This document shows positions 521 through 17,403 of a stretch of DNA of 21,071 nt, piece after piece. Positions within the stretch are counted from its first letter, which is position 1. Each line of letters begins with the position of its first letter. A program made the position numbers and the translations under genes. Source of the stretch: a virus; IMG/VR virus record IMGVR_UViG_3300025667_000269, positions 1 through 21,071 of that record. One strand, given 5' to 3'. Under the pieces are notes generated by a model. The model made no database searches. It had not been told where the DNA came from and saw only the letters and a list, made by a program, of their open reading frames with translations.

Positions 521-817
521 TTATGATAGAATTTGTGATTTTGGTGCGTATATTTTAGAATACATACTCGAATAAGAAGAAAGGATATCTTCTGTTGGGC
601 TGGCTGAGGTTACAACAAAATCTTCAGGAATTGTGAATTCTGTATTTGTTGAATACGGCATCCACGGAGATAATGCCATTTGCATTGCACCATCATCATT
701 TCTACCAACCGGCATAACCACAGCGGGGTTTTCCACCACATATTTACCATCAACCTCGGTAATAACATCACATAAAATATCTTCACCACTTCTCAATCTT
801 AAAATCTCAACGCTCAT
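521..817 (-). CDS. Small Sm/Hfq-like phage protein
   Basis: A 98-residue protein whose first 50 residues look like an Sm-type beta barrel: LRLRSGEDILCDV followed by GKYVVENPAVVMPVG. Similar small proteins sit next to regA and the polymerase gene in marine T4-like phages and, as I recall, are annotated as Hfq-related; I cannot confirm this by search. A role in RNA binding is therefore inference. Its ATG overlaps the regA stop as ATGA (814-817), so it is probably translated by coupling with RegA, itself an RNA-binding repressor. The C-terminus (about residues 60-98) is not recognised. Confidence 0.75.
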   Translation of the reverse strand: MSVEILRLRSGEDILCDVITEVDGKYVVENPAVVMPVGRNDDGAMQMALSPWMPYSTNTEFTIPEDFVVTSASPTEDILSSYSSMYSKIYAPKSQILS

Positions 818-1238: not shown

Positions 1239-1610
1239 TCAAGTTCCACCCTTGTATAAGGATTTTTTGATTTCACTGAGATGATCAATAGATAACAAAT
1301 CAAGTACAGCCTTAGCCTTTTTATCAGAATAATTATAATATTCTTTTATTGCAGAAATATTATCATCCTTCGTAGATTTTAGCCACGGTGCATATCGTCT
1401 CTTCTTTTTAATCACCTTCAAATAATATTTATATTGAATATCTTTATCAAGAAAATGGAATCTATTTAACTCGTTGGCAAAAAATAAGGTATCAATATAC
1501 CCAGACATGGCCTTATTAATAATAAAAGGGCTATAGTTATCTATATTCTCAATTAAATCGTTCTTCCCGAAATTGATAGAATTAAGCCAATCTGATAACT
1601 TTAATTTCAT
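1239..1610 (-). CDS. 62: Clamp loader small subunit gp62
   Basis: gp62 joins gp44 to form the ATP-driven loader that places the gp45 clamp on DNA. The 123-residue protein is shorter than T4 gp62 (about 187) but is the size I recall for marine T4-like phages. Features resembling that group are YSPFIINKAMSGYIDTLFFANELN near residues 26-49, a basic KKKRRYAPWLK segment near 68-78 and an ending SEIKKSLYKGG. It overlaps the gp44 stop by ATGA (1607-1610), so translation is coupled, as for the T4 44/62 pair. Identity rests on position and partial sequence resemblance. Confidence 0.88.
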   Translation of the reverse strand: MKLKLSDWLNSINFGKNDLIENIDNYSPFIINKAMSGYIDTLFFANELNRFHFLDKDIQYKYYLKVIKKKRRYAPWLKSTKDDNISAIKEYYNYSDKKAKAVLDLLSIDHLSEIKKSLYKGGT

Positions 1611-2539
1611 TTGAATTCACACCTAAGCATAATTTCTGTTAGAGCTGCAAGAATATTAATCTCAGGATCAGCAACAAATGCAGACTTATATTGATATTCA
1701 GCTATGATAACAACGGCTTCTGGAATAGATCCAGGTTTTAAATAATCATAGAGGGAATCATAAACCGATCTGTAGATAGCATCACTCTCATTATCAATAT
1801 TATCTACAACCCATTTTCTAACATTAGTAAATTCCTTCCTCGAAAGAAACCCAACGAGTTCATTAATTCGAATTGAATTCACAGACAAAATACCAGAGTT
1901 TATTCCACCAGAACTAGAATACCTTTGAAGTTCATTAATAAGTCTTCTGAAATCTGGAAAGAATTTCATAATGAGGTGAACCAGAACCTCTTTATCATAC
2001 TTAACAGATTCCGTGGTTAGTATATACTCGATACGGTCAAGAAGTTTAAGAGCTAATGCTGGTTTATTTGAGGGTGTAATTGAAAAGTCTATTACAGAAC
2101 ATCTGGAATGTATAGGTTCAATGAGTTTATTTTTATAGTTACATGTCAGTATAAATCTACAGTTCCTATAAAATTCCTCAAATACTCCACGAATAGCTTT
2201 TTGAGCCTCAGGCGTCATGGAATCTGCTTCATCTAGGATAATAACTTTACCCGCAGAAGAAAATGATTTAGTTGATGCGAATTGTTTTACTTTATTTCGG
2301 ATTGTATCAATACCACGTTCATCCGAGGCATTAATCATTATGAAATCAGATTTAATTTCAGTACATAGTATTTTTGCTATGGTGGTTTTACCTATACCAG
2401 CAGAACCAGTCAGCATAAGGTGTGGTATTTCTTTATTTTTGATAAATCCATCAAATATATTAGAAGATGATTCCTCTAATATACATTCTGAAATTTTGGT
2501 TGGTCTATACTTTTCTACCCATAAAAAATCGTTACTCAT
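1607..2539 (-). CDS. 44: Clamp loader ATPase subunit gp44
   Basis: An AAA+ ATPase of the RFC/gp44 type, 310 residues, close to T4 gp44 (319). Visible motifs: VEKYRPTKISE near residues 8-18, typical of RFC-type loaders; Walker A GSAGIGKT at 45-52; Walker B ILDEAD around 101-106; sensor region ILTCNYKNKLIEPIHSRC with the SRC arginine finger at 145-147. It works with gp62 to load gp45. The start at 2539 has GAGGTG about five bases upstream. It lies downstream of gp45 and a small membrane protein in the same transcription unit; no promoter is visible directly in front of it. Confidence 0.96.
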   Translation of the reverse strand: MSNDFLWVEKYRPTKISECILEESSSNIFDGFIKNKEIPHLMLTGSAGIGKTTIAKILCTEIKSDFIMINASDERGIDTIRNKVKQFASTKSFSSAGKVIILDEADSMTPEAQKAIRGVFEEFYRNCRFILTCNYKNKLIEPIHSRCSVIDFSITPSNKPALALKLLDRIEYILTTESVKYDKEVLVHLIMKFFPDFRRLINELQRYSSSGGINSGILSVNSIRINELVGFLSRKEFTNVRKWVVDNIDNESDAIYRSVYDSLYDYLKPGSIPEAVVIIAEYQYKSAFVADPEINILAALTEIMLRCEFK

Positions 2540-7064: not shown

Positions 7065-7177
7065 TGCTGAATATAATATCCAAGAACCCACCAAGCAATG
7101 AAAGGTAATGTGATTATCATGTTCGATAGGAATGTGGATTTATTGAGCTTTAAAATATATAACTTTTGTTTCTTCAT
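7061..7177 (-). CDS. 38-residue membrane protein (small gene after mdh)
   Basis: The product is MKKQKLYILKLNKS followed by a hydrophobic span around residues 17-36 (LSNMIITLPFIAWWVLGYYI). Its ATG overlaps the mdh stop as ATGA (7174-7177) and its own stop overlaps the next ATG in the same way, so it is locked into a coupled series. This double ATGA overlap is the evidence that it is a real gene. Function unknown; a holin-like or regulatory membrane peptide is possible but unsupported. Confidence 0.65.
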   Translation of the reverse strand: MKKQKLYILKLNKSTFLSNMIITLPFIAWWVLGYYIQQ

Positions 7178-8151
7178 AGTAAATGTCTAATTTCATCTCT
7201 CTCTGATATCAATTCCATCTCTGTCAATCTTAGCATGGACCCTGAATATTCGTCAATCTCGAGATCATCAACAACAAAGAGTTTACCTCTCGCGTGATAA
7301 ACAGGAAATGAAAATATTAAATCCGATTCAATACTATATTGCCCGGATGATAATACTGCCATTGATTCCCAGAGTTGTGAGCCTCCTCTTCCAGACCAAA
7401 TTTTCATTTGTTGAATTGCAGCATTAGCGGCAGAGGCGGCAGACGACACGCCAAGCCATTCAATGACAGAAGCACCTCTATTTTGTACAGAAGGTATATA
7501 ATCTTTAACATACCAATCATTCTCAATAACATCCATCGCCTTAAATCCTTTAACTTGTGCATGATTTAAATCCGGATATAATGTTGGAGAATGATTACCC
7601 CATATAATGAGGTCATTAATTGTATCGTGAGGAGCTCCACAATATTTGGATACAATAGCCTTAGCACGATTAACATCGAGTTGCATCATTCCACTAAAAT
7701 TGGTTGAATTTAATCCGACCGCATTGGATAAGGCTACAAGGGTATTGGTATTGCTTGGATTACCTGCAATTAATACCTTAACATCTTTTGATGCGACCTT
7801 ACCAAGAATACGCCCATGGGAAGCAAATATCTTTGCATTATCTTGTAGGAGGTCAGATCGTTCCATTCCCTTTAGTCTGGGTTTAGCTCCCATCATAAAC
7901 ACATATTCAGCATCTCCAAATGCAACTTCCGGATCGTCGGTGATAACCACATCACCCAATGTTGGAAAATTACAATCATCAAGTTCCATTTGTATACCGT
8001 GTAAGGTTTTCATTGCCGATGGAACTTCTAGGAGTTTAAGATTAACCTTTACATCCTCACCAAACAAATCCCCATTTGCCAAACGGAATACTAAAGCATA
8101 CCCAATTCTACCAGCAGCACCGGTGATTGATATGTTAACCGATTTACTCAT
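7174..8151 (-). CDS. mdh: Malate dehydrogenase (NAD-dependent)
   Basis: MDH interconverts malate and oxaloacetate with NAD. The 325-residue protein belongs to the type with the N-terminal NAD motif ITGAAGRIGYAL (residues 7-18). Substrate arginines are seen in GAKPRLKGMER, the catalytic pair D and R in LDVNRA, and the proton-relay histidine in IIWGNHSPTLYPDL. Length fits the family. The ATG at 8151 is chosen because the motif starts a few residues later, the usual distance, and because it overlaps the ald stop by eight bases; upstream in-frame codons are not needed. Its C-terminus overlaps the 38-residue gene. All active-site residues I can place are intact. Confidence 0.95.
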   Translation of the reverse strand: MSKSVNISITGAAGRIGYALVFRLANGDLFGEDVKVNLKLLEVPSAMKTLHGIQMELDDCNFPTLGDVVITDDPEVAFGDAEYVFMMGAKPRLKGMERSDLLQDNAKIFASHGRILGKVASKDVKVLIAGNPSNTNTLVALSNAVGLNSTNFSGMMQLDVNRAKAIVSKYCGAPHDTINDLIIWGNHSPTLYPDLNHAQVKGFKAMDVIENDWYVKDYIPSVQNRGASVIEWLGVSSAASAANAAIQQMKIWSGRGGSQLWESMAVLSSGQYSIESDLIFSFPVYHARGKLFVVDDLEIDEYSGSMLRLTEMELISERDEIRHLL

Positions 8152-9229
8152 AATATTCCACCAAGTCCAATGATTCTGCAACATTTAAATTAGTTATTTT
8201 ACCACCATGCACATAAACCCCCTTTTTAAAATTTGAATCTAATTTATCAATACCAGTACTAGCTAACCTTGTTATATATGGTAATGTCGATTCGGTTAAT
8301 ATATCTGTAGCAGATCTTGGATATGTACCAGGCATATTAGATACACAATAATGAATGACCCCATGTTTAGAATAAATTGGGTGTTTGTGAGTTCTCATAC
8401 GTGAAGTTTCTATACATCCACCTTGATCTATAGAAACGTCAACAATAACCGACCCATTCCTCATGGATTTTACCATATCTTCTGTAACAACAACAGGGGC
8501 TTTCATTCCCGGTATTGAAACTGCACCAACAACCAAATCTGCATCTTTAATATAATGCTCCAGATTTTCTTTATTTGATTTTCTATATATTACATCACTT
8601 CCATCACCGAAATATTTTTGACATTCGACATCGAGACCAAGAAGCACAACATTAGAACCCATACCCGAAGCCATTTTGGCAGCATGTCTTCCAACAACCC
8701 CATCTCCCACAACAACTACATTACCAGAAGTATTACCGTTAATATCTCCAAGTTGTACACCCGAACCTCTGAGATCCCCTGCATATTGAAGATAATAAGA
8801 ACCAATGGTAATAGCCATATTACCAGCAATTGCTGACATTGGCGATAGGAGAGGAAGATTTCCATGTTCATCCGCAACAGACTCATATGCTATGGCGGTG
8901 GTATTGGTGCTCAATAATTTGAGTGTGAGATTTTTATCCACACCAGCGAGATGAAGATAAGTAAATAATATTTGACCATTAAAATATTTGTATTCTTCCT
9001 CGAGAGGTTCTTTAACCTTAACCACAAGATCCGAATCCCATGCATAAAAGTCATGACATATAGTCGCACCGGCAGCTATATAATCATCATCCGAATAACC
9101 AGAACCAACCCCAGCTTCAAATGTTACGCATACCGAATGACCCGCATTAACTAATGCCCGAACCCCATCAGGAGTTATTGCTACTCTATTTTCATTGTCT
9201 TTTATTTCTTTAATTAAACCGATTTTCAT
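8144..9229 (-). CDS. ald: Alanine dehydrogenase
   Basis: Ald interconverts alanine and pyruvate plus ammonia with NAD(H). The 361-residue protein starts MKIGLIKEIKDNENRVA, with the substrate arginine at R15; KVKEP (K73) and TYLHLA (H93) carry the catalytic lysine and histidine; GDGVVGRHAA is the NAD fold; VDVSIDQGGC carries the conserved aspartate; NMPGTYPRSAT is the typical C-terminal motif. The ATG at 9229, with GAGGTG upstream, gives the usual family N-terminus; a start farther upstream would add 24 residues unlike the family. It overlaps the next gene (mdh) and starts two bases before the end of the metallopeptidase gene. Confidence 0.95.
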   Translation of the reverse strand: MKIGLIKEIKDNENRVAITPDGVRALVNAGHSVCVTFEAGVGSGYSDDDYIAAGATICHDFYAWDSDLVVKVKEPLEEEYKYFNGQILFTYLHLAGVDKNLTLKLLSTNTTAIAYESVADEHGNLPLLSPMSAIAGNMAITIGSYYLQYAGDLRGSGVQLGDINGNTSGNVVVVGDGVVGRHAAKMASGMGSNVVLLGLDVECQKYFGDGSDVIYRKSNKENLEHYIKDADLVVGAVSIPGMKAPVVVTEDMVKSMRNGSVIVDVSIDQGGCIETSRMRTHKHPIYSKHGVIHYCVSNMPGTYPRSATDILTESTLPYITRLASTGIDKLDSNFKKGVYVHGGKITNLNVAESLDLVEYYE

Positions 9230-9230
9230 T

Positions 9231-9602
9231 TTACACCTCGTTAAGCTCAACCATAAAATCGTAATACAATACATATTCAGAAGAATATGCATACTCTTCA
9301 TCGAGGTCTCTGTAATTTATATATTGATATACATGAACCATCTCATGTATTATGGTAGAAATTATCCCGTTCCTGTGCATATCATTATCAATATAGATGT
9401 CATAGTAACCTCTATTAGAAGGATCACATATTGTATATCCTCGAAGTGGTCCTTCTGCTACGTCAGATTTATTAGACAGATCGTCAATAAAAAAACATAT
9501 ATCTATCTCATCTGGTATTCCTAATCGTTCACATACCCAAGGGGTTATAGATTCAAATGTGGATTTATTAAATGCATCAACTGTATCATCATATATTATC
9601 AT
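9231..9602 (-). CDS. Small HExxH zinc metallopeptidase-like protein
   Basis: A 123-residue protein with IIHEMVHVYQY near residues 87-97: an HExxH zinc site followed by a conserved-looking Q, then a second acidic patch (DEEYAYSSEYVLYYDF) that could supply the third ligand. This is the layout of minimal zincin peptidases, but it does not match a named phage family that I can recognise. It has GGGGGGAAAG directly before ATG 9602. It lies between ppa and ald. Substrate unknown; processing of a host or phage protein is a guess. Confidence 0.7.
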   Translation of the reverse strand: MIIYDDTVDAFNKSTFESITPWVCERLGIPDEIDICFFIDDLSNKSDVAEGPLRGYTICDPSNRGYYDIYIDNDMHRNGIISTIIHEMVHVYQYINYRDLDEEYAYSSEYVLYYDFMVELNEV

Positions 9603-9615
9603 GCTTTCCCCCCTA

Positions 9616-10107
9616 TCATTTTGTATAAGGATTTATATTATCATATTTTTTAATTACTTTTCTTGCAGAGTCTCCATCCTCCCATCCAATAACATTAACC
9701 CATTTATCACGATCTAGATCTTTATAATGTTCAAAAAAATGTCTAATGCATGACAATAATCTTCTCGGAATATCTTCAAGATCATTATAATCAGCATAAT
9801 AATCCCCAATTGGTACAGTTAATATTTTATGATCCTCACCCTCCTCATCAACCATTCTGAGAACGCCTATCACCCTACATCTAGCAACACATCCAGCTAA
9901 GAGGGGATACGGACTCAAAACCAATACATCTAATGGATCACCATCTGGTGCTAATGTATCTGGCATAAATCCATAATTAGCGGGGTAATACATTGCAGTA
10001 TCAAGAAATCTATCTAAATAAATATCCCCAGTTTCCTGATCGACCTCATATTTAACGGGGTCTGATGCCATAGGTATTTCAATTTTAACCTTTATTATTT
10101 TTTCCAT
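9616..10107 (-). CDS. ppa: Inorganic pyrophosphatase, family I
   Basis: The enzyme splits pyrophosphate released by nucleotide polymerisation and biosynthesis, pulling those reactions forward. The 163-residue protein has the family signature DGDPLDVLVL at about residues 57-66, the metal and substrate residues in KYEVDQETG, YYPANYGFMP and VDEEGEDHK, and HFFEHYKDLDRDKWVNVIGW near the C-terminus, resembling E. coli Ppa throughout. The ATG at 10107 is preferred over a TTG at 10116: GAGGG lies nine bases upstream of the ATG. The gene overlaps the preceding small membrane protein by 23 bases. Confidence 0.95.
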   Translation of the reverse strand: MEKIIKVKIEIPMASDPVKYEVDQETGDIYLDRFLDTAMYYPANYGFMPDTLAPDGDPLDVLVLSPYPLLAGCVARCRVIGVLRMVDEEGEDHKILTVPIGDYYADYNDLEDIPRRLLSCIRHFFEHYKDLDRDKWVNVIGWEDGDSARKVIKKYDNINPYTK

Positions 10108-10291
10108 TATTAACAACCCTCACTATAATTTCGTTACCGTCTTTATCGACTTTGAAATCAATGATATTTGATTCGTGGAGATTATCTAAACAATAATTAA
10201 CCCCGAACTCTAATCCTGCCTTGGCTCCTGCAGAATAAGAAAATTTTACCGCTAAAGCAATAACAATTCCATATGCAACATATTCTATCAA
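10085..10291 (-). CDS. 68-residue protein with N-terminal membrane segment, TTG start
   Basis: A small protein of unknown function. Residues 3-22 (EYVAYGIVIALAVKFSYSAG) form a weak membrane span or export signal; the rest is a polar domain (NIIDFKVDKDGNEIIVRVV). The start is TTG 10291, one base after the gp46 stop, with GGAG about eight bases upstream. Its end overlaps ppa, so it is part of the same unit. Nothing in the sequence identifies it. Confidence 0.6.
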   Translation of the reverse strand: MIEYVAYGIVIALAVKFSYSAGAKAGLEFGVNYCLDNLHESNIIDFKVDKDGNEIIVRVVNNGKNNKG

Positions 10292-11999: not shown

Positions 12000-13048
12000 T
12001 CTATATTACTTGCCTCAACATATAATTCATGCATTCTATTCGAAAGATCGTCATTCTCAATACCACTTATTGAAATAGATTCTATGTACTTAGAAATCAG
12101 GGAAGAGGTATCATCGCTTGAATTGACTTCTTCAATTATTCCGGAATCTAGATCGTTTGATTCTATAATTTTAAGATCTATGACATTGATATCATTATAT
12201 AGTCTCGAGAGGAATCTGTCAAATTTATATAGATCTTTTTTATTAATTACAACCAATTTAATTATCTTAGAGTCGTATTCAGATACGTCTACCGTCTCAT
12301 AGTCAATTTTGGAATCATCGTAATATATCTTTTCAAGGATTGTATATGTATTGGGAATGAACTCCATTTCTAATGTTTCGGTGTCAAATACATGGAAACC
12401 TTTAGTCTCACCATAATCTGACCAATTAATCTGGTAAGGTGTACCCAAGTAATATATGGTAGAATTGTCTGATCTCTTATGGAAGTGACCGGAATACATA
12501 GCTTCAAATCCGGAAAATATGGAAGGATTTAAACCAGATCTAGCAATTATTTGGGAGTTTAAATAAAACCCATTAACCTCTAGATGTCCAAAACCAATTT
12601 TACACTTGGTCTGATCGATAATGTTTAAAGAAGATTTTGAATTCTGTGTATTAATCCACGGAACAAAAATCATATTCAGTCCACCGATATTAACCTCTTC
12701 AACTTCTGAATAAGATGTTACATTGGGATAAAGTTCTGTTAACAAATCTATTGAATTAATTGAATTAGTATTTTTAAAATAAGTTGAATGATTACCTACT
12801 ATACAATGAAGTGCTATATCATTTTCACTTAATTTATCAAACCACATCTTCTTAGTAAGATTAAGTATATTATAATTAATATACTTCCTATGATCAAAGG
12901 TATCCCCAAGATCAATAACTGTTGATATATTATTTTCTTTTAAATAAGGGAAAAAGATATTGTCATAAAACTTTTTAAAATATTCTGAAAAATGTATACT
13001 ATCATTTCTTGCACCGAAATGCTGATCAGTTATACAAGCAATTTTCAT
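11996..13048 (-). CDS. 47: Recombination endonuclease nuclease subunit gp47 (Mre11/SbcD type)
   Basis: The Mn-dependent nuclease of the gp46/gp47 complex. The 350-residue protein (T4: 339) shows all phosphodiesterase motifs in order: D8-Q-H10 (TDQHFG), IDLGDTFDH, VGNHSTY, GFGHLEVNG and YSGHFHKR. Beyond about residue 240 comes the cap and gp46-binding region, which is not highly conserved. The ATG overlaps the gp55 stop (13045-13048). Confidence 0.97.
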   Translation of the reverse strand: MKIACITDQHFGARNDSIHFSEYFKKFYDNIFFPYLKENNISTVIDLGDTFDHRKYINYNILNLTKKMWFDKLSENDIALHCIVGNHSTYFKNTNSINSIDLLTELYPNVTSYSEVEEVNIGGLNMIFVPWINTQNSKSSLNIIDQTKCKIGFGHLEVNGFYLNSQIIARSGLNPSIFSGFEAMYSGHFHKRSDNSTIYYLGTPYQINWSDYGETKGFHVFDTETLEMEFIPNTYTILEKIYYDDSKIDYETVDVSEYDSKIIKLVVINKKDLYKFDRFLSRLYNDINVIDLKIIESNDLDSGIIEEVNSSDDTSSLISKYIESISISGIENDDLSNRMHELYVEASNIE

Positions 13049-13521
13049 TGAAAGTAATCCTTTAGTATTTCATTATAATATTCTTGCAGTTCAGCATTAG
13101 TATTAGATACATCGATGTTAAAAAGCTGTGATATATCTGCTCTATGAATTATACCTTTTTTAACATCTCTCTGCTTATTTTCTTTTTGGATTCTACGAAT
13201 GAAGGCATAATATATTATTTGAGTAAAATAAGAAAAGGGGTTACTTGATTTTTCCGGATTAAAATTATGTGCATATGCTATACAGTTTTCTATTCCATCT
13301 AGTATCATTTCATCTTTATAAGTATAGTTCCTAAAATTAGGTTTAGTTGCTAGATTCTTAGCTATCTTCATAAAACAGACTGCAGCCTTATTGGATATAG
13401 TAGGTCTTCTTTCTAGATCCTTATCTAGGTAATTCTGGTAGTTGATCCTATACTCAATCATTTCTTCTAGAAATTCTTTATTATCAACATAATGAACTGG
13501 CTTATCTTTAACTTTTGGCAT
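13045..13521 (-). CDS. 55: Late transcription sigma factor gp55
   Basis: gp55 directs host RNA polymerase to TATAAATA late promoters, with the gp45 clamp as activator. The 158-residue product is slightly shorter than T4 gp55 (185). It resembles the family across the sigma region 2-like part: AHNFNPEKSSNPFSYFTQIIYYAFIRRIQKE near residues 89-118 is typical of a DNA-melting helix, and the short C-terminal tail (EILKDYF) resembles the clamp-binding end. AAGGA lies seven bases before ATG 13521. It opens the long unit of recombination and metabolic genes and has its own promoter at 13576-13548. Confidence 0.92.
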   Translation of the reverse strand: MPKVKDKPVHYVDNKEFLEEMIEYRINYQNYLDKDLERRPTISNKAAVCFMKIAKNLATKPNFRNYTYKDEMILDGIENCIAYAHNFNPEKSSNPFSYFTQIIYYAFIRRIQKENKQRDVKKGIIHRADISQLFNIDVSNTNAELQEYYNEILKDYFQ

Positions 13522-13547
13522 TATATTTTCCTTTATCTTAATATTGT

Positions 13548-13576
13548 ATTATAACCTATTTTTCATTAATTGTAAA
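13548..13576 (-). promoter_or_regulatory. Early-type promoter for gene 55 and the long operon
   Basis: TTTACA (13576-13571), 17-bp spacer, TATAAT (13553-13548) on the minus strand. Predicted start near 13541, leader about 20 nt. A 14-bp palindrome, AAATACTAGTATTT (13573-13586), overlaps the -35 box, so a repressor could act here. No other promoter is visible before 5833, so this one may serve gp55 through panD. Confidence 0.8.
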
Positions 13577-13586
13577 TACTAGTATT

Positions 13587-13794
13587 TTAAGGGCAGGTTA
13601 CGATCCTACTGATCTTGTCCCTGTTGATTCAGGAATCCTTAATGGGCTCGTATTATCGCCCCGATCCGGTTACTCTATCACGTTTTGCTTGTACTGACTC
13701 AGTGAATGGATGCATCGAAACATGGGTTTCAATGGTAGCCTTTACAACCCGATAGCTTTCGACTCAGACGGTTGTTATAGTTTTGTGTACTTGT
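13587..13794 (-). ncRNA. Candidate structured small RNA between uvsW and gene 55
   Basis: This is the bulk of the 307-base gene-free stretch 13522-13828. It has its own consensus promoter (13828-13800), is richer in G and C than its surroundings, and codes for nothing convincing. On the minus strand it folds into a series of hairpins: ACAACC/GGTTGT (13775-13744), a nine-pair stem with loop CCAT (13734-13713), GGGC/GCCC (13661-13644), and a three-way junction at 13642-13587. In the junction, TTAAGG pairs with CCTTAA and encloses CCTG/CAGG and GTAGG/CCTGC, the latter with a seven-base loop. That last part resembles a tRNA acceptor and T arm without an anticodon arm. The 3' end is uncertain: no U-tract follows. 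Function unknown. Confidence 0.5.
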
Positions 13795-13799
13795 TTAGT

Positions 13800-13828
13800 A
13801 TTATATCAAATTAGCTTTCAATTGTAAA
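13800..13828 (-). promoter_or_regulatory. Early-type promoter upstream of the candidate RNA
   Basis: TTTACA (13828-13823), 17-bp spacer, TATAAT (13805-13800) on the minus strand; the -35 box begins directly after the uvsW stop codon. Predicted start near 13793, more than 270 bases before the gp55 ATG, which has a second promoter of its own. Confidence 0.8.
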
Positions 13829-15298
13829 CTATAAATTGATAATCTCAGTTGAAACATCAAACTCAGCTTCATTATAAATGTTGTAACGAGCATAGAAATG
13901 GTTGAGCGTGTAGTTTTTCTTCTTTCCCTTCCTGATATCATCTGCTATATCGTATACATTACATTTATCTTTGGAATCATGAAGACGAAGACCTCTACCA
14001 ATAGATTGAAGTACTCGTACTTGGGATTTAGTTGGGAATGCAAAGATGATATTATGGAGGTTCTTAATATTAATACCAGTTGAATATGTTTGATATGATG
14101 CTACAATAATGACATCATCATTAGCTTCTGTAACATCCCGGGTTTCCTCTCTTTCCTCAGCCTTAACCATACCAGAAATATATCTGACATTCTTTGTGGT
14201 TAATGATCTAATTTGTTTAGTTAATGGAATACCGTGTTTCTCGACGTACTGAAAGAGAACAAGCGTATTACCCTCAAGGGTTGTAGCAAGACGGGAAATG
14301 AACTGATTTCTTGCAGCATTAAGGACAAGATAATCACATTCCTCTTGATAAGTTTTAACCCGCATTGCTATCTTCTTATCCGAGACAGAATGATTTAGGA
14401 TGAGAGAATTGATTTTAAGTTTTGATATTGTGCCAGAATCCATTAATTCTTTGGTGGAAACAACCTTCTTGGGGACATCAAATAATCCAGAGAGAACTAG
14501 TTTATTAGATTCTGTTCCATCAAGAGTTCCAGTTAATCCAAACCTGTACTTACAGTCCGGAAGTTTTTCCATAATGGACTTGAGCGATGCTGCTTTAGCA
14601 AGATGCGCTTCATCAACGAATATAACACCAAACTTCTCGAAGTAGGGTCTCTTTTCTTTATATACAGATTGCCATGTTGAAATATATATTCTCTGCTGAG
14701 AATCTTTATCTTTACCACCGGTTATCATATGACAATTTGTCTCTGAATTAAACCCGTAGTCTTCAAAATCTTTAAACATTTGTGATACAAGAGATATTGT
14801 AGGTACTAATAATAATATCTTTTCCTCTTGTTTGAGTAGATAATATCGGATCAGACAATAAATAATTAAGGATTTACCCGAGGCTGTAGGACTTACTAGG
14901 AGAGCTCTATTCTGCTTTATTGAGTGATGTATAGCTTCAGTTTGATAATCCCTTAACTCGAGGGGAATATTTAAATATTTGATGAATTCTTTGACATCCC
15001 CTTTATCTGTCCCATTAGATTCATCAAATATAGAGAATGTATATCCTCTGGTATCAGCAAACCTAACCACCTCAAATTTAAGACCGTAATATATAAGAGA
15101 TGTCTTCATATTAAAGAGTCTTATTTTACCATCCCACGCTCTGGTCTTATATGCTGGCATGAACTTTGCACCAGGAACCTCGAAGGTGAAATGGTCTGAC
15201 AATTCCTGTGCTATACCCTTATCAGTAGATATAGACACAAAGATGTCATTTTTCTTGGTAATTATTATATCAGATTTATTATTTGTTATGTAATCCAC
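13829..15298 (-). CDS. uvsW: Recombination helicase UvsW
   Basis: An SF2 helicase that unwinds branched DNA and R-loops and turns off origin-dependent replication in T4. Motifs in order: SPTASGKS (Walker A), VPTISLVSQM, FVDEAHLA (DEAH-like box), LTGTLDG, ASYQTYSTGINIKN and QSIGRGLR (motif VI). The N-terminal FTFEVPGAKFMPAYKTRAWDGKIRLF matches the UvsW N-domain. I chose GTG 15298, giving 489 residues, because GGGGAA lies a few bases upstream and it overlaps the uvsY stop; the frame is open to another GTG at 15325. The N-terminus of T4 UvsW fits the shorter form. Confidence 0.93.
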   Translation of the reverse strand: MDYITNNKSDIIITKKNDIFVSISTDKGIAQELSDHFTFEVPGAKFMPAYKTRAWDGKIRLFNMKTSLIYYGLKFEVVRFADTRGYTFSIFDESNGTDKGDVKEFIKYLNIPLELRDYQTEAIHHSIKQNRALLVSPTASGKSLIIYCLIRYYLLKQEEKILLLVPTISLVSQMFKDFEDYGFNSETNCHMITGGKDKDSQQRIYISTWQSVYKEKRPYFEKFGVIFVDEAHLAKAASLKSIMEKLPDCKYRFGLTGTLDGTESNKLVLSGLFDVPKKVVSTKELMDSGTISKLKINSLILNHSVSDKKIAMRVKTYQEECDYLVLNAARNQFISRLATTLEGNTLVLFQYVEKHGIPLTKQIRSLTTKNVRYISGMVKAEEREETRDVTEANDDVIIVASYQTYSTGINIKNLHNIIFAFPTKSQVRVLQSIGRGLRLHDSKDKCNVYDIADDIRKGKKKNYTLNHFYARYNIYNEAEFDVSTEIINL

Positions 15299-15693
15299 TA
15301 ATTCCCCGCCTGAAACTTTTCCCACTCAATTATATTCCTAATGTGGAAAGACCTTGCCCCTATTTCTTTTAATTTTTTCTCGAGGTCTTTCTCCTGTATT
15401 TCAAGAGATATCATTTTTTTCTTAAGTTCTATGATATCTGAATCCCCCGAAATGTATAGGGAGACGTCTGATTTTAATATCTTTTCGGGGAGAGGGGATT
15501 TTAAATAAACGTCGGGATCAGCTTTACCGAGGAAATATTTCCATTTATCGAGATAAAGGATATCATATTCCATCCCATACCATTTAAGTTTAGCAAGAAT
15601 CTCATTGTATTGATTCATGTACTTTGAGTATATTAAGGGTGTCTCCGCTGATTCTATAGTAAGTTTAGTTACATCAATTTTATCTAGGTCCAT
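15298..15693 (-). CDS. uvsY: Recombination mediator UvsY
   Basis: UvsY loads the UvsX recombinase onto gp32-coated single-stranded DNA. The 131-residue protein (T4: 137) has ESAETPLIYSKYMNQYNEILAKLKW near residues 14-38, and the C-terminal ARSFHIRNIIEWEKFQAG matches the T4 ending, which has the same spacing and final EAG/QAG. Its neighbour is uvsW, as in T4. The start codon lies only six bases after the -10 box of its promoter, so the mRNA is probably leaderless or nearly so; no ribosome site can precede it on that transcript. The next in-frame ATG (codon 26) would remove conserved residues. Confidence 0.92.
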   Translation of the reverse strand: MDLDKIDVTKLTIESAETPLIYSKYMNQYNEILAKLKWYGMEYDILYLDKWKYFLGKADPDVYLKSPLPEKILKSDVSLYISGDSDIIELKKKMISLEIQEKDLEKKLKEIGARSFHIRNIIEWEKFQAGN

Positions 15694-16224: not shown

Positions 16225-17403
16225 TCAAAGGAGATCAGCGCCAATTGCTTGAGATATATTGGTGTACCCATCACGTTCAAGAAGTTCCGTGAGCCCCATA
16301 TTGATTTCTGCAGAAATTTGTGGACCATGAAAGATCATACCTGTGATAAGATGTATTAATGTTGCCCCATTTCGTATTTTATGATATGCATCCTCTGGTG
16401 TATCACAACCACCGATACCTATAACTATAAATTCATATTCAGAATCTTTAATATGTTGAGCACAAACTCTAATTATATGATTAGTCATAGGTCTAAGGAT
16501 GTGACCGCTTAACCCACCTCTATCATCAGGCATGACTCGTTTTTCTACCTTACCTTTATGGAAAACATATGTTGTCTTATCATTATCAGGTAATAATTCA
16601 CGTTTAGTTGTAAGATTACACGTTAATATACCATTGATACCATACTCAACCATAACATCAATCATTTCTCGAATCTCATCATCAGTATGATCTGGTCCGA
16701 TTTTACAATATAAAGGTACATCCTCAAGACCCATTAATTCCCTGAGTGATCTTAGTTTCAATAATAAATCTGCTAGGTTATCCATATTGAAAAATGGATT
16801 AGATACCCCTAGATTTGGGCAAGATAGGTTTATAGTAGTATAATCACCGAATGGTGCAAGTCTCTTATATGAGGTTGTTAAATCTTCAATTGCCTCATCA
16901 GAACCAGAAATACCGTTTGTTGCGGATACTGATACGCCACATACACCATCAATAGATTTCCAATCCGATGCGATAGTATCCTGTACATGCTTTGAACCAG
17001 AGTTGTTCAGACCGTACCACACATTAATGGATTGAGATTTAACTGCTCTCCATAGGCGAACTGGTGGATTTCCGGGGTGAGCGTTTTTTGAAAATGATCC
17101 AAGCTCAATACCAGAAAATCCAAGATCCTTAATAACAGGGGGAAGTACCCCATATTTATCAAACCCAGCAGAAATTAGAAGTGGATTGCTGTAATCGACA
17201 CCACCGACATTTTGAGATAATATAGGGTTATCATATCGATATAGGAATTTCAGCAGAGATTTCGAGCCAGGTACCTTCTGAAGCGATACCATAATATTTT
17301 TAACTACATCGTGCGCTGTCTCTGGGCAGAGCTTAAATAATATGGGTCTTAATAAAAATTTGTAAACATTCCTCTGTATCTTATATTTATTTCCACTTTT
17401 CAT
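16225..17403 (-). CDS. pyrD: Dihydroorotate dehydrogenase, class 2-like
   Basis: The enzyme oxidises dihydroorotate to orotate in pyrimidine synthesis; class 2 forms pass electrons to membrane quinones. The 392-residue protein has the class 2 amphipathic N-terminus (FLLRPILFKLCPETAHDVV, residues 16-34), AGFDK with the FMN lysine at 83, CKIGPD, LTCNLTTKR, GGLSGHILRP and VIGIGG. The catalytic-base segment reads NLSCPN with Cys195, where class 2 enzymes usually have Ser (E. coli NISSPN) and class 1 enzymes Cys. The gene overlaps the end of the 111-residue gene by 17 bases; AGGAA lies nine bases upstream. It is read from the promoter at 17777. It is longer than E. coli PyrD (336), with insertions in the middle. 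Confidence 0.92.
   Translation of the reverse strand: MKSGNKYKIQRNVYKFLLRPILFKLCPETAHDVVKNIMVSLQKVPGSKSLLKFLYRYDNPILSQNVGGVDYSNPLLISAGFDKYGVLPPVIKDLGFSGIELGSFSKNAHPGNPPVRLWRAVKSQSINVWYGLNNSGSKHVQDTIASDWKSIDGVCGVSVSATNGISGSDEAIEDLTTSYKRLAPFGDYTTINLSCPNLGVSNPFFNMDNLADLLLKLRSLRELMGLEDVPLYCKIGPDHTDDEIREMIDVMVEYGINGILTCNLTTKRELLPDNDKTTYVFHKGKVEKRVMPDDRGGLSGHILRPMTNHIIRVCAQHIKDSEYEFIVIGIGGCDTPEDAYHKIRNGATLIHLITGMIFHGPQISAEINMGLTELLERDGYTNISQAIGADLL

Follow-up and report, generated by a model that had tools for sequence, protein, structure and literature searches.

A structured RNA, very likely of a new family, between uvsW and gp55 in T4-like phages

The 307-base gap between the uvsW-like gene and gp55 of a T4-like phage encodes a structured RNA, on the minus strand at 13587-13793, as is shown by covariation. 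That the RNA stands above chance rests on this covariation, on the conservation of its promoter in relatives and on its retention in whole clades. It very likely constitutes a new family, matching none that is known, and its function can only be inferred.

The DNA analysed, hereafter the window, is a stretch of 21,071 nucleotides (IMG/VR virus record IMGVR_UViG_3300025667_000269, positions 1 to 21,071). It was assigned to a T4-like phage by its gene content, i.e., UvsY, a uvsW-like helicase, gp55, homologues of gp46/47, the major capsid protein and a sliding clamp. It also carries metabolic genes unusual for a phage (lactate/malate dehydrogenase, alanine dehydrogenase, pyrophosphatase and dihydroorotate dehydrogenase; the four lie at 7174-8184, 8144-9301, 9616-10116 and 16225-17403). 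Both flanking genes are on the minus strand, with the end of uvsW at 13829 and the start of gp55 at 13521. No credible open reading frame was found in the gap: the only one of at least 40 amino acids is a 46-amino-acid TTG frame on the opposite strand. The main features of the region are as follows.

13829-15325, minus strand: uvsW-like DNA helicase (PHROG 16, E 2.3e-99; synteny with the annotated UvsW of S-SCSM1)
13800-13828, minus strand: promoter of the RNA, with -35 box TTTACA (13828-13823), 17-nt spacer and -10 box TATAAT (13805-13800); 11/12 consensus
13587-13793, minus strand: structured non-coding RNA; start predicted near 13793, last conserved helix ending at 13587 (cmsearch with model R1, 236 bits)
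13548-13576, minus strand: separate gp55 promoter, TTTACA-17-TATAAT; 11/12 consensus, visible in most close relatives
13045-13521, minus strand: gp55, late sigma factor (PHROG 234, E 1.7e-49)

The window taken alone does not establish the RNA. Its single-sequence folding energy is ordinary (z -0.71 on the minus strand, +0.59 on the plus strand), and the number of promoter-like matches in the region (96) is near that of shuffled sequences (83.5). The evidence of a preliminary description, made from the sequence alone, was therefore insufficient, and since the single-sequence fold is not significant, the claim had to be tested by comparison. A gp55 query gave 80 viral loci, among which those most similar to the window carry a closely similar element in the same gap. 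Further copies, some of them elsewhere in the genome, were found with a pattern of the P1 motif. All these relatives are metagenomic contigs. Across 16 distinct homologues, 45 nested pairs are supported, 22 of them with compensatory changes. With the addition of a four-pair pseudoknot (P4), the model has 49 pairs, 98.5% of cells paired and 24 covarying pairs. None of 500 shuffles scored as high, and 30-47% of cells were paired when the structure was slid. The identity of the RNA exceeds the third-position identity of gp55 in all eight pairs compared (e.g., 92 vs 84% and 62 vs 38%). The elements of the structure are listed below, all on the minus strand.

13691-13790, minus strand: P0, leader GUAC (13790-13787) with the GUAC of the P3 loop (13694-13691); supported by a permutation test
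13744-13775, minus strand: P1 (13775-13770 with 13749-13744); three of six pairs change on both sides
13713-13734, minus strand: P2, nine-pair stem with a CCAT loop; five of nine pairs change on both sides, 97.9% of cells paired
13678-13705, minus strand: P3, stem-loop, its loop being the partner of the 5' leader; covaries within type I and across both types
13611-13666, minus strand: P4 (13666-13663 with 13614-13611), pseudoknot with P8; 100% of cells paired, with compensatory changes
13644-13661, minus strand: P5, hairpin (13661-13658 with 13647-13644); 100% of cells paired, covarying, distal part variable in length
13587-13642, minus strand: three-way junction, P8 (13642-13637 with 13592-13587) enclosing P6 (13635-13618) and P7 (13609-13593); covariation

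P1 carries a GUCUGAGUC-NNAA-GCUAUC motif, with a mostly GNRA-like loop, that is invariant except at two loop positions. Invariant loops also include the P6 loop and the CGUAAC segment of P7. The helices P8, P6 and P7 covary both in the type I alignment, to which the pair counts for the 16 homologues refer, and in the joint core alignment described below. The claims of the preliminary description held up well against these data. Its nine-pair stem with a CCAT loop (13713-13734) is exactly P2 and its three-way junction (13587-13642) exactly P8 enclosing P6 and P7. The gap is without a credible gene, as it had stated (gene ends and reading-frame check), and the two flanking consensus promoters are there, both 11/12 with 17-nt spacers on the minus strand. 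Its central proposal, a new small RNA with its own promoter, held on the covariation, on the promoter kept in 46 of 48 homologues and on the absence of an Rfam match, with no transcript observed; the Rfam search likewise upheld its statement that no known family could be matched. The check for covariation and conservation in relatives that it had proposed was passed (24 of 49 pairs covarying). What it had not seen are the P4/P8 pseudoknot, the P0 pairing between leader and P3 loop, and a second subgroup of the family.

This second subgroup, type II, is larger, has a different 5' domain joined to the same 3' core and belongs to another clade. One homologue, L105 (L013), keeps the 3' half of the RNA and has an unrelated 5' half, and a pattern drawn from that 5' half led to other phages in which the RNA again lies before gp55. 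The gp55 of one such phage gave 78 newly numbered loci, 57 of which match the type I model significantly (E 1e-18 to 1e-8). The model had been built without those 78 loci, so these matches are independent support for the family. All the type II sequences inspected end in the same core, upstream of gp55. The RNA of L105 itself (1583-1787, minus strand) is a mosaic, with a type II-like 5' domain and a type I-like 3' core, in a phage of the type I clade, and a small extra reading frame lies upstream of it.

Type II analysed alone has 56 assigned pairs, of which 94.5% are formed and 33 covary. None of 500 shuffles reached these values, either in paired cells or in double-sided changes. The figure of 94.5% is lowered by one helix, P5i, whose placement is out of register, and the leaders of two further sequences were placed by hand in this alignment. 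The joint core of both types has 32 pairs, 93.2% formed, with P4 formed in 100%. The window matches the core model R2 (P3-P8 with the P4 pseudoknot) at 88 bits (E 1e-15) and R1 at 236 bits; it is present in both training alignments, so its own scores are so by construction. The window meets the definition of the family, i.e., a P3-P8 core with a covarying P4 pseudoknot and a match to R1/R2. The conserved element is about 200-290 nt long. A more distant T4-like contig (L119, 1201-1450) also has the invariant P1 motif, there in other surroundings, with a terminase-like gene nearby; it matches R1 over 67 nt (E 8e-7) and was not found by the core model. It could represent a third type of the RNA.

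In both types, the promoter is closely followed by a segment complementary to the P3 loop. The partners change together between phages, e.g., GCAC/GUGC, GUGC/GCAC, GACC/GGUC, UUGCAUC/GAUGCAA, UUACUC/GAGUAA and UUGGAC/GUCCAA, among others, and P0 comprises 4-7 covarying pairs that join a free 5' segment to the loop of a hairpin. When partners were exchanged at random, the observed score was reached in none of 20,000 permutations for type II and in 4 of 20,000 for type I, in which GUAC, a palindrome, is common to most copies. The test used alignment-defined segments, with two type II sequences placed by hand. We regard the P0 pairing as very probably real in both types; these data do not distinguish an intramolecular from an intermolecular contact. 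Two type II RNAs (L150 and L168) lack the P3 hairpin, and no pairing partner for their leader is apparent.

The promoter of the RNA is conserved with it. Of 48 homologues, 46 have a match to at least 10 of 12 consensus positions within the 65 nt that precede the leader, vs 3% of shuffled upstream sequences; these promoters are near-perfect sigma-70-type sequences, many of them 12/12. The end of the -10 box mostly lies 8-12 nt upstream of the 5' pairing segment in the homologues. The 5' end at about 13793 is inferred from the promoter and P0: the transcript is predicted to start at the P0 pairing segment or a few bases upstream, and none has been observed. The RNA is read from the minus strand, because G-U cells (71) far exceed A-C cells (5) among the pairs. 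No terminator was found after the RNA; the 3' end is thus undefined, and read-through into gp55 is possible. In type II loci (e.g., L180 and L163), the interval between the RNA and gp55 holds several more hairpins with CGAAG-type loops, which might belong to an extended transcript or serve as its terminator. The window as a whole has six promoters of 11-12/12 consensus with 17-nt spacers, all on the minus strand (5833, 12222, 13576, 13828, 15728 and 17777), and these are likely to be early promoters of the phage.

The distribution of the RNA follows clades. On the gp55 tree, type I is present in 14 of 14 members of one supported clade (13 and the mosaic) and type II in 40 of 41 members of another, the exception lying near a contig end. 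The RNA is thus kept in nearly every member of two clades, which suggests that it is probably important in infection. The two clades are not neighbours; the RNA may be ancestral and lost elsewhere, or it may have passed between clades. There is one significant copy per contig, on contigs of up to 124 kb. The regions checked in two cyanophages and in a cyanophage-like single-cell virus lack it, as do the other T4-like contigs checked; in the two cyanophages, both annotated, uvsW, an Sm-like or equivalent gene and gp55 follow one another without it. An independent third scan, with a pattern of the type II 5' motif, gave 36 contigs. In the new ones, the Sm-like gene once more immediately precedes the RNA; two of these contigs are not truncated, and both match the core model. 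Since the pattern scans used the very motif sought, they are not a full census. Searches of cultured phages (blastn with five different queries) gave chance matches only or none, and 274 gammaproteobacterial genomes gave no match, which is weak evidence in the absence of a positive control. Some candidates were discarded: relaxing the core motif at one position gave 20 matches in bacterial genomes that look fortuitous (in six of these genomes the models match nothing), and the matches of a P6-region pattern in L103/L104 are chance matches in coding sequence.

The position of the RNA varies between genomes. In L018, a methyltransferase-like gene lies between it and gp55; in L019/L088, it is in the opposite orientation, near the capsid gene; in L091, it lies among tail genes. 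These copies away from gp55 are full-length, keep P0 and mostly keep the promoter (in L091, only a weak one lies within the 65-nt stretch scored). In L091, a tRNA-Met gene (9147-9223) is about 160 nt from the RNA; GOLLD and ROOL RNAs also occur near tRNA genes. A second gene of possible relevance is that of the Sm-like protein, which in the window is the following.

521-817, minus strand: Sm-like protein gene (similar to PDB 3by7, E 5e-15; weak match to Pfam Sm_like, E 7.7e-4, below the curated cut-off)

In all 33 type II loci, the RNA is immediately preceded by a homologue of this gene, which ends shortly before the RNA promoter (e.g., L120, 4396-4698). By inference only, as no binding partner is known, the Sm-like protein is a natural candidate partner. 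The link may be merely positional, because cyanophages have the gene in the same place without the RNA.

Taken together, these data indicate that the element is very likely a free-standing RNA gene whose product acts in trans, the latter being inferred from its changes of position between genomes. The best overall explanation, which we consider likely, is an early, trans-acting RNA of a new family that works with a protein partner; no transcript, phenotype or partner is known. In the mechanism that we propose, the host RNA polymerase would make the RNA early, before gp55 acts, as inferred from the type of promoter. The first transcribed bases can pair with the loop of the P3 hairpin; this P0, if intramolecular, would shield the 5' end, and the sealed end may give a stable and abundant RNA. 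The 3' half folds into the conserved pseudoknotted core P4-P8, and the 5' half is an exchangeable domain of two types, as the sequence comparison supports. The core, to judge from its invariant loops (the P6 loop and the CGUAAC segment of P7), may dock a protein or a large complex, and the RNA would act in trans as a scaffold or decoy during host take-over. This docking mechanism is an inference without binding data, and we lean slightly against it. A bolder reading is also conceivable: an early RNA machine of two T4-like clades, with a pseudoknotted 3' core, swappable 5' domains and a sealed 5' end. Such a machine might capture or reprogram a central host complex (RNA polymerase, ribosome or nuclease), or might even be catalytic.

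The most obvious rival is a cis-acting leader, attenuator or riboswitch for gp55 together with the genes downstream. Most phages indeed have the RNA directly upstream of gp55, on the same strand and with no terminator between, so that it could be the start of a longer mRNA where gp55 follows. Yet in the window a separate gp55 promoter follows the RNA, and full-length copies that gp55 does not follow (opposite-facing or at tail-gene sites) keep P0 and mostly the promoter. A leader should always be upstream and on the same strand, which the copies in L018, L019/L088 and L091 do not satisfy. We thus consider this unlikely: several copies lie away from gp55, so the RNA is not a gp55 leader. The same copies answer the objection, named in the preliminary description, that there might be nothing beyond gp55 leader RNA; read-through into gp55 is still possible. 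The other extreme, a chance fold in a non-coding gap with no RNA at all, is supported by the ordinary single-sequence folding energy but is all but excluded by the covariation, which in each of three alignments (type I, type II and joint) greatly exceeds that of shuffled and slid controls.

Other rivals accept the RNA and differ in what it does. It might oligomerise, with P0 formed between molecules as in the packaging RNA of phi29 or the cages of GOLLD and ROOL, since a free 5' segment and a hairpin loop could pair in trans. We doubt this: at about 200-290 nt it is much smaller than GOLLD (many above 800 nt) or ROOL (659 nt), and no RNA is known to take part in the T4 packaging motor. The two type II loci without P3 have no apparent P0 partner, as expected for an internal contact, which does not exclude the alternative. 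A ribozyme or mobile-element RNA (group I-like, retron-like or a nuclease guide RNA) would fit the compact pseudoknotted fold, the invariant loops, the differing positions and the mosaic of two types in L105. It is improbable given that the window has no Rfam match even at E 10, that six long type II contigs have no reverse transcriptase and that no nuclease is consistently adjacent; moreover, unlike a mobile element, the RNA is single-copy and nearly always retained in its clades. Finally, it could regulate mRNAs by base pairing with the help of the phage Sm-like protein, like Hfq-dependent sRNAs, as might be read from the gene preceding it in all 33 type II loci and present in the window. 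This too is unlikely, as most of the sequence is in helices with no obvious conserved free seed and the Sm-like gene holds the same place in cyanophages without the RNA.

The early, trans-acting RNA that we favour matters because the non-coding RNAs of phages have been little charted, and comparative support of this strength for a structure is rare among them. A defined promoter and 5' end, two long-range contacts and two natural 5' variants make it a testable entry point, and the models derived here can detect it in further data sets.

No known RNA family accounts for it. Rfam 15 (4227 models) gave no match in the window at gathering thresholds, and still none over 13400-13950 when the cut-off was relaxed to E 10; for the elements of six relatives, a cut-off of E 1 likewise gave none, and L196 gave only implausible marginal matches. 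ARAGORN found no tRNA or tmRNA in the window or over any element (the tRNA-Met of L091 is unrelated). A literature search that did not cover subscription papers or preprints yielded no description of the RNA. For group I introns and other known ribozymes, the evidence is limited to the lack of an Rfam match. Membership of retron or defence-RT RNAs was rejected, as RVT_1 was absent from the six long type II contigs, which are incomplete, while positive controls were detected. GOLLD and ROOL were also rejected, having an expected length of about 600-900 nt, as was 6S RNA, given the branched covarying structure with the P4-P8 pseudoknot; none of the three gave an Rfam match.

The closest systems are nonetheless instructive. 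GOLLD is an RNA of phages and prophages with an elaborate structure, a 3' region that is conserved, a 5' region that varies and an unknown function (PMC12286853), all of which it shares with the new RNA, but it is far longer, often lies beside tRNA islands and matches neither in sequence nor in structure. ROOL is likewise phage-borne, with several pseudoknots and no known protein partner, and differs in its length, 659 nt in the solved example. The T4 RNAs C and D are small stable RNAs of unknown function encoded in the tRNA region of T4; they resemble the new RNA as small RNAs of T4-type phages without a known function and differ in that location, although no comparison was made. The packaging RNA of phi29 is a small phage RNA with covarying loop contacts. 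The new RNA has such contacts too, whereas phage group and motor differ and Rfam gives no match. 6S RNA is a single long bulged rod, unlike the branched, pseudoknotted RNA described here, but the two are of about equal length, and if the new RNA binds a large complex in trans, they may work in a similar way. Structured phage RNAs of unknown function are already known, and the novelty lies at the level of the RNA family.
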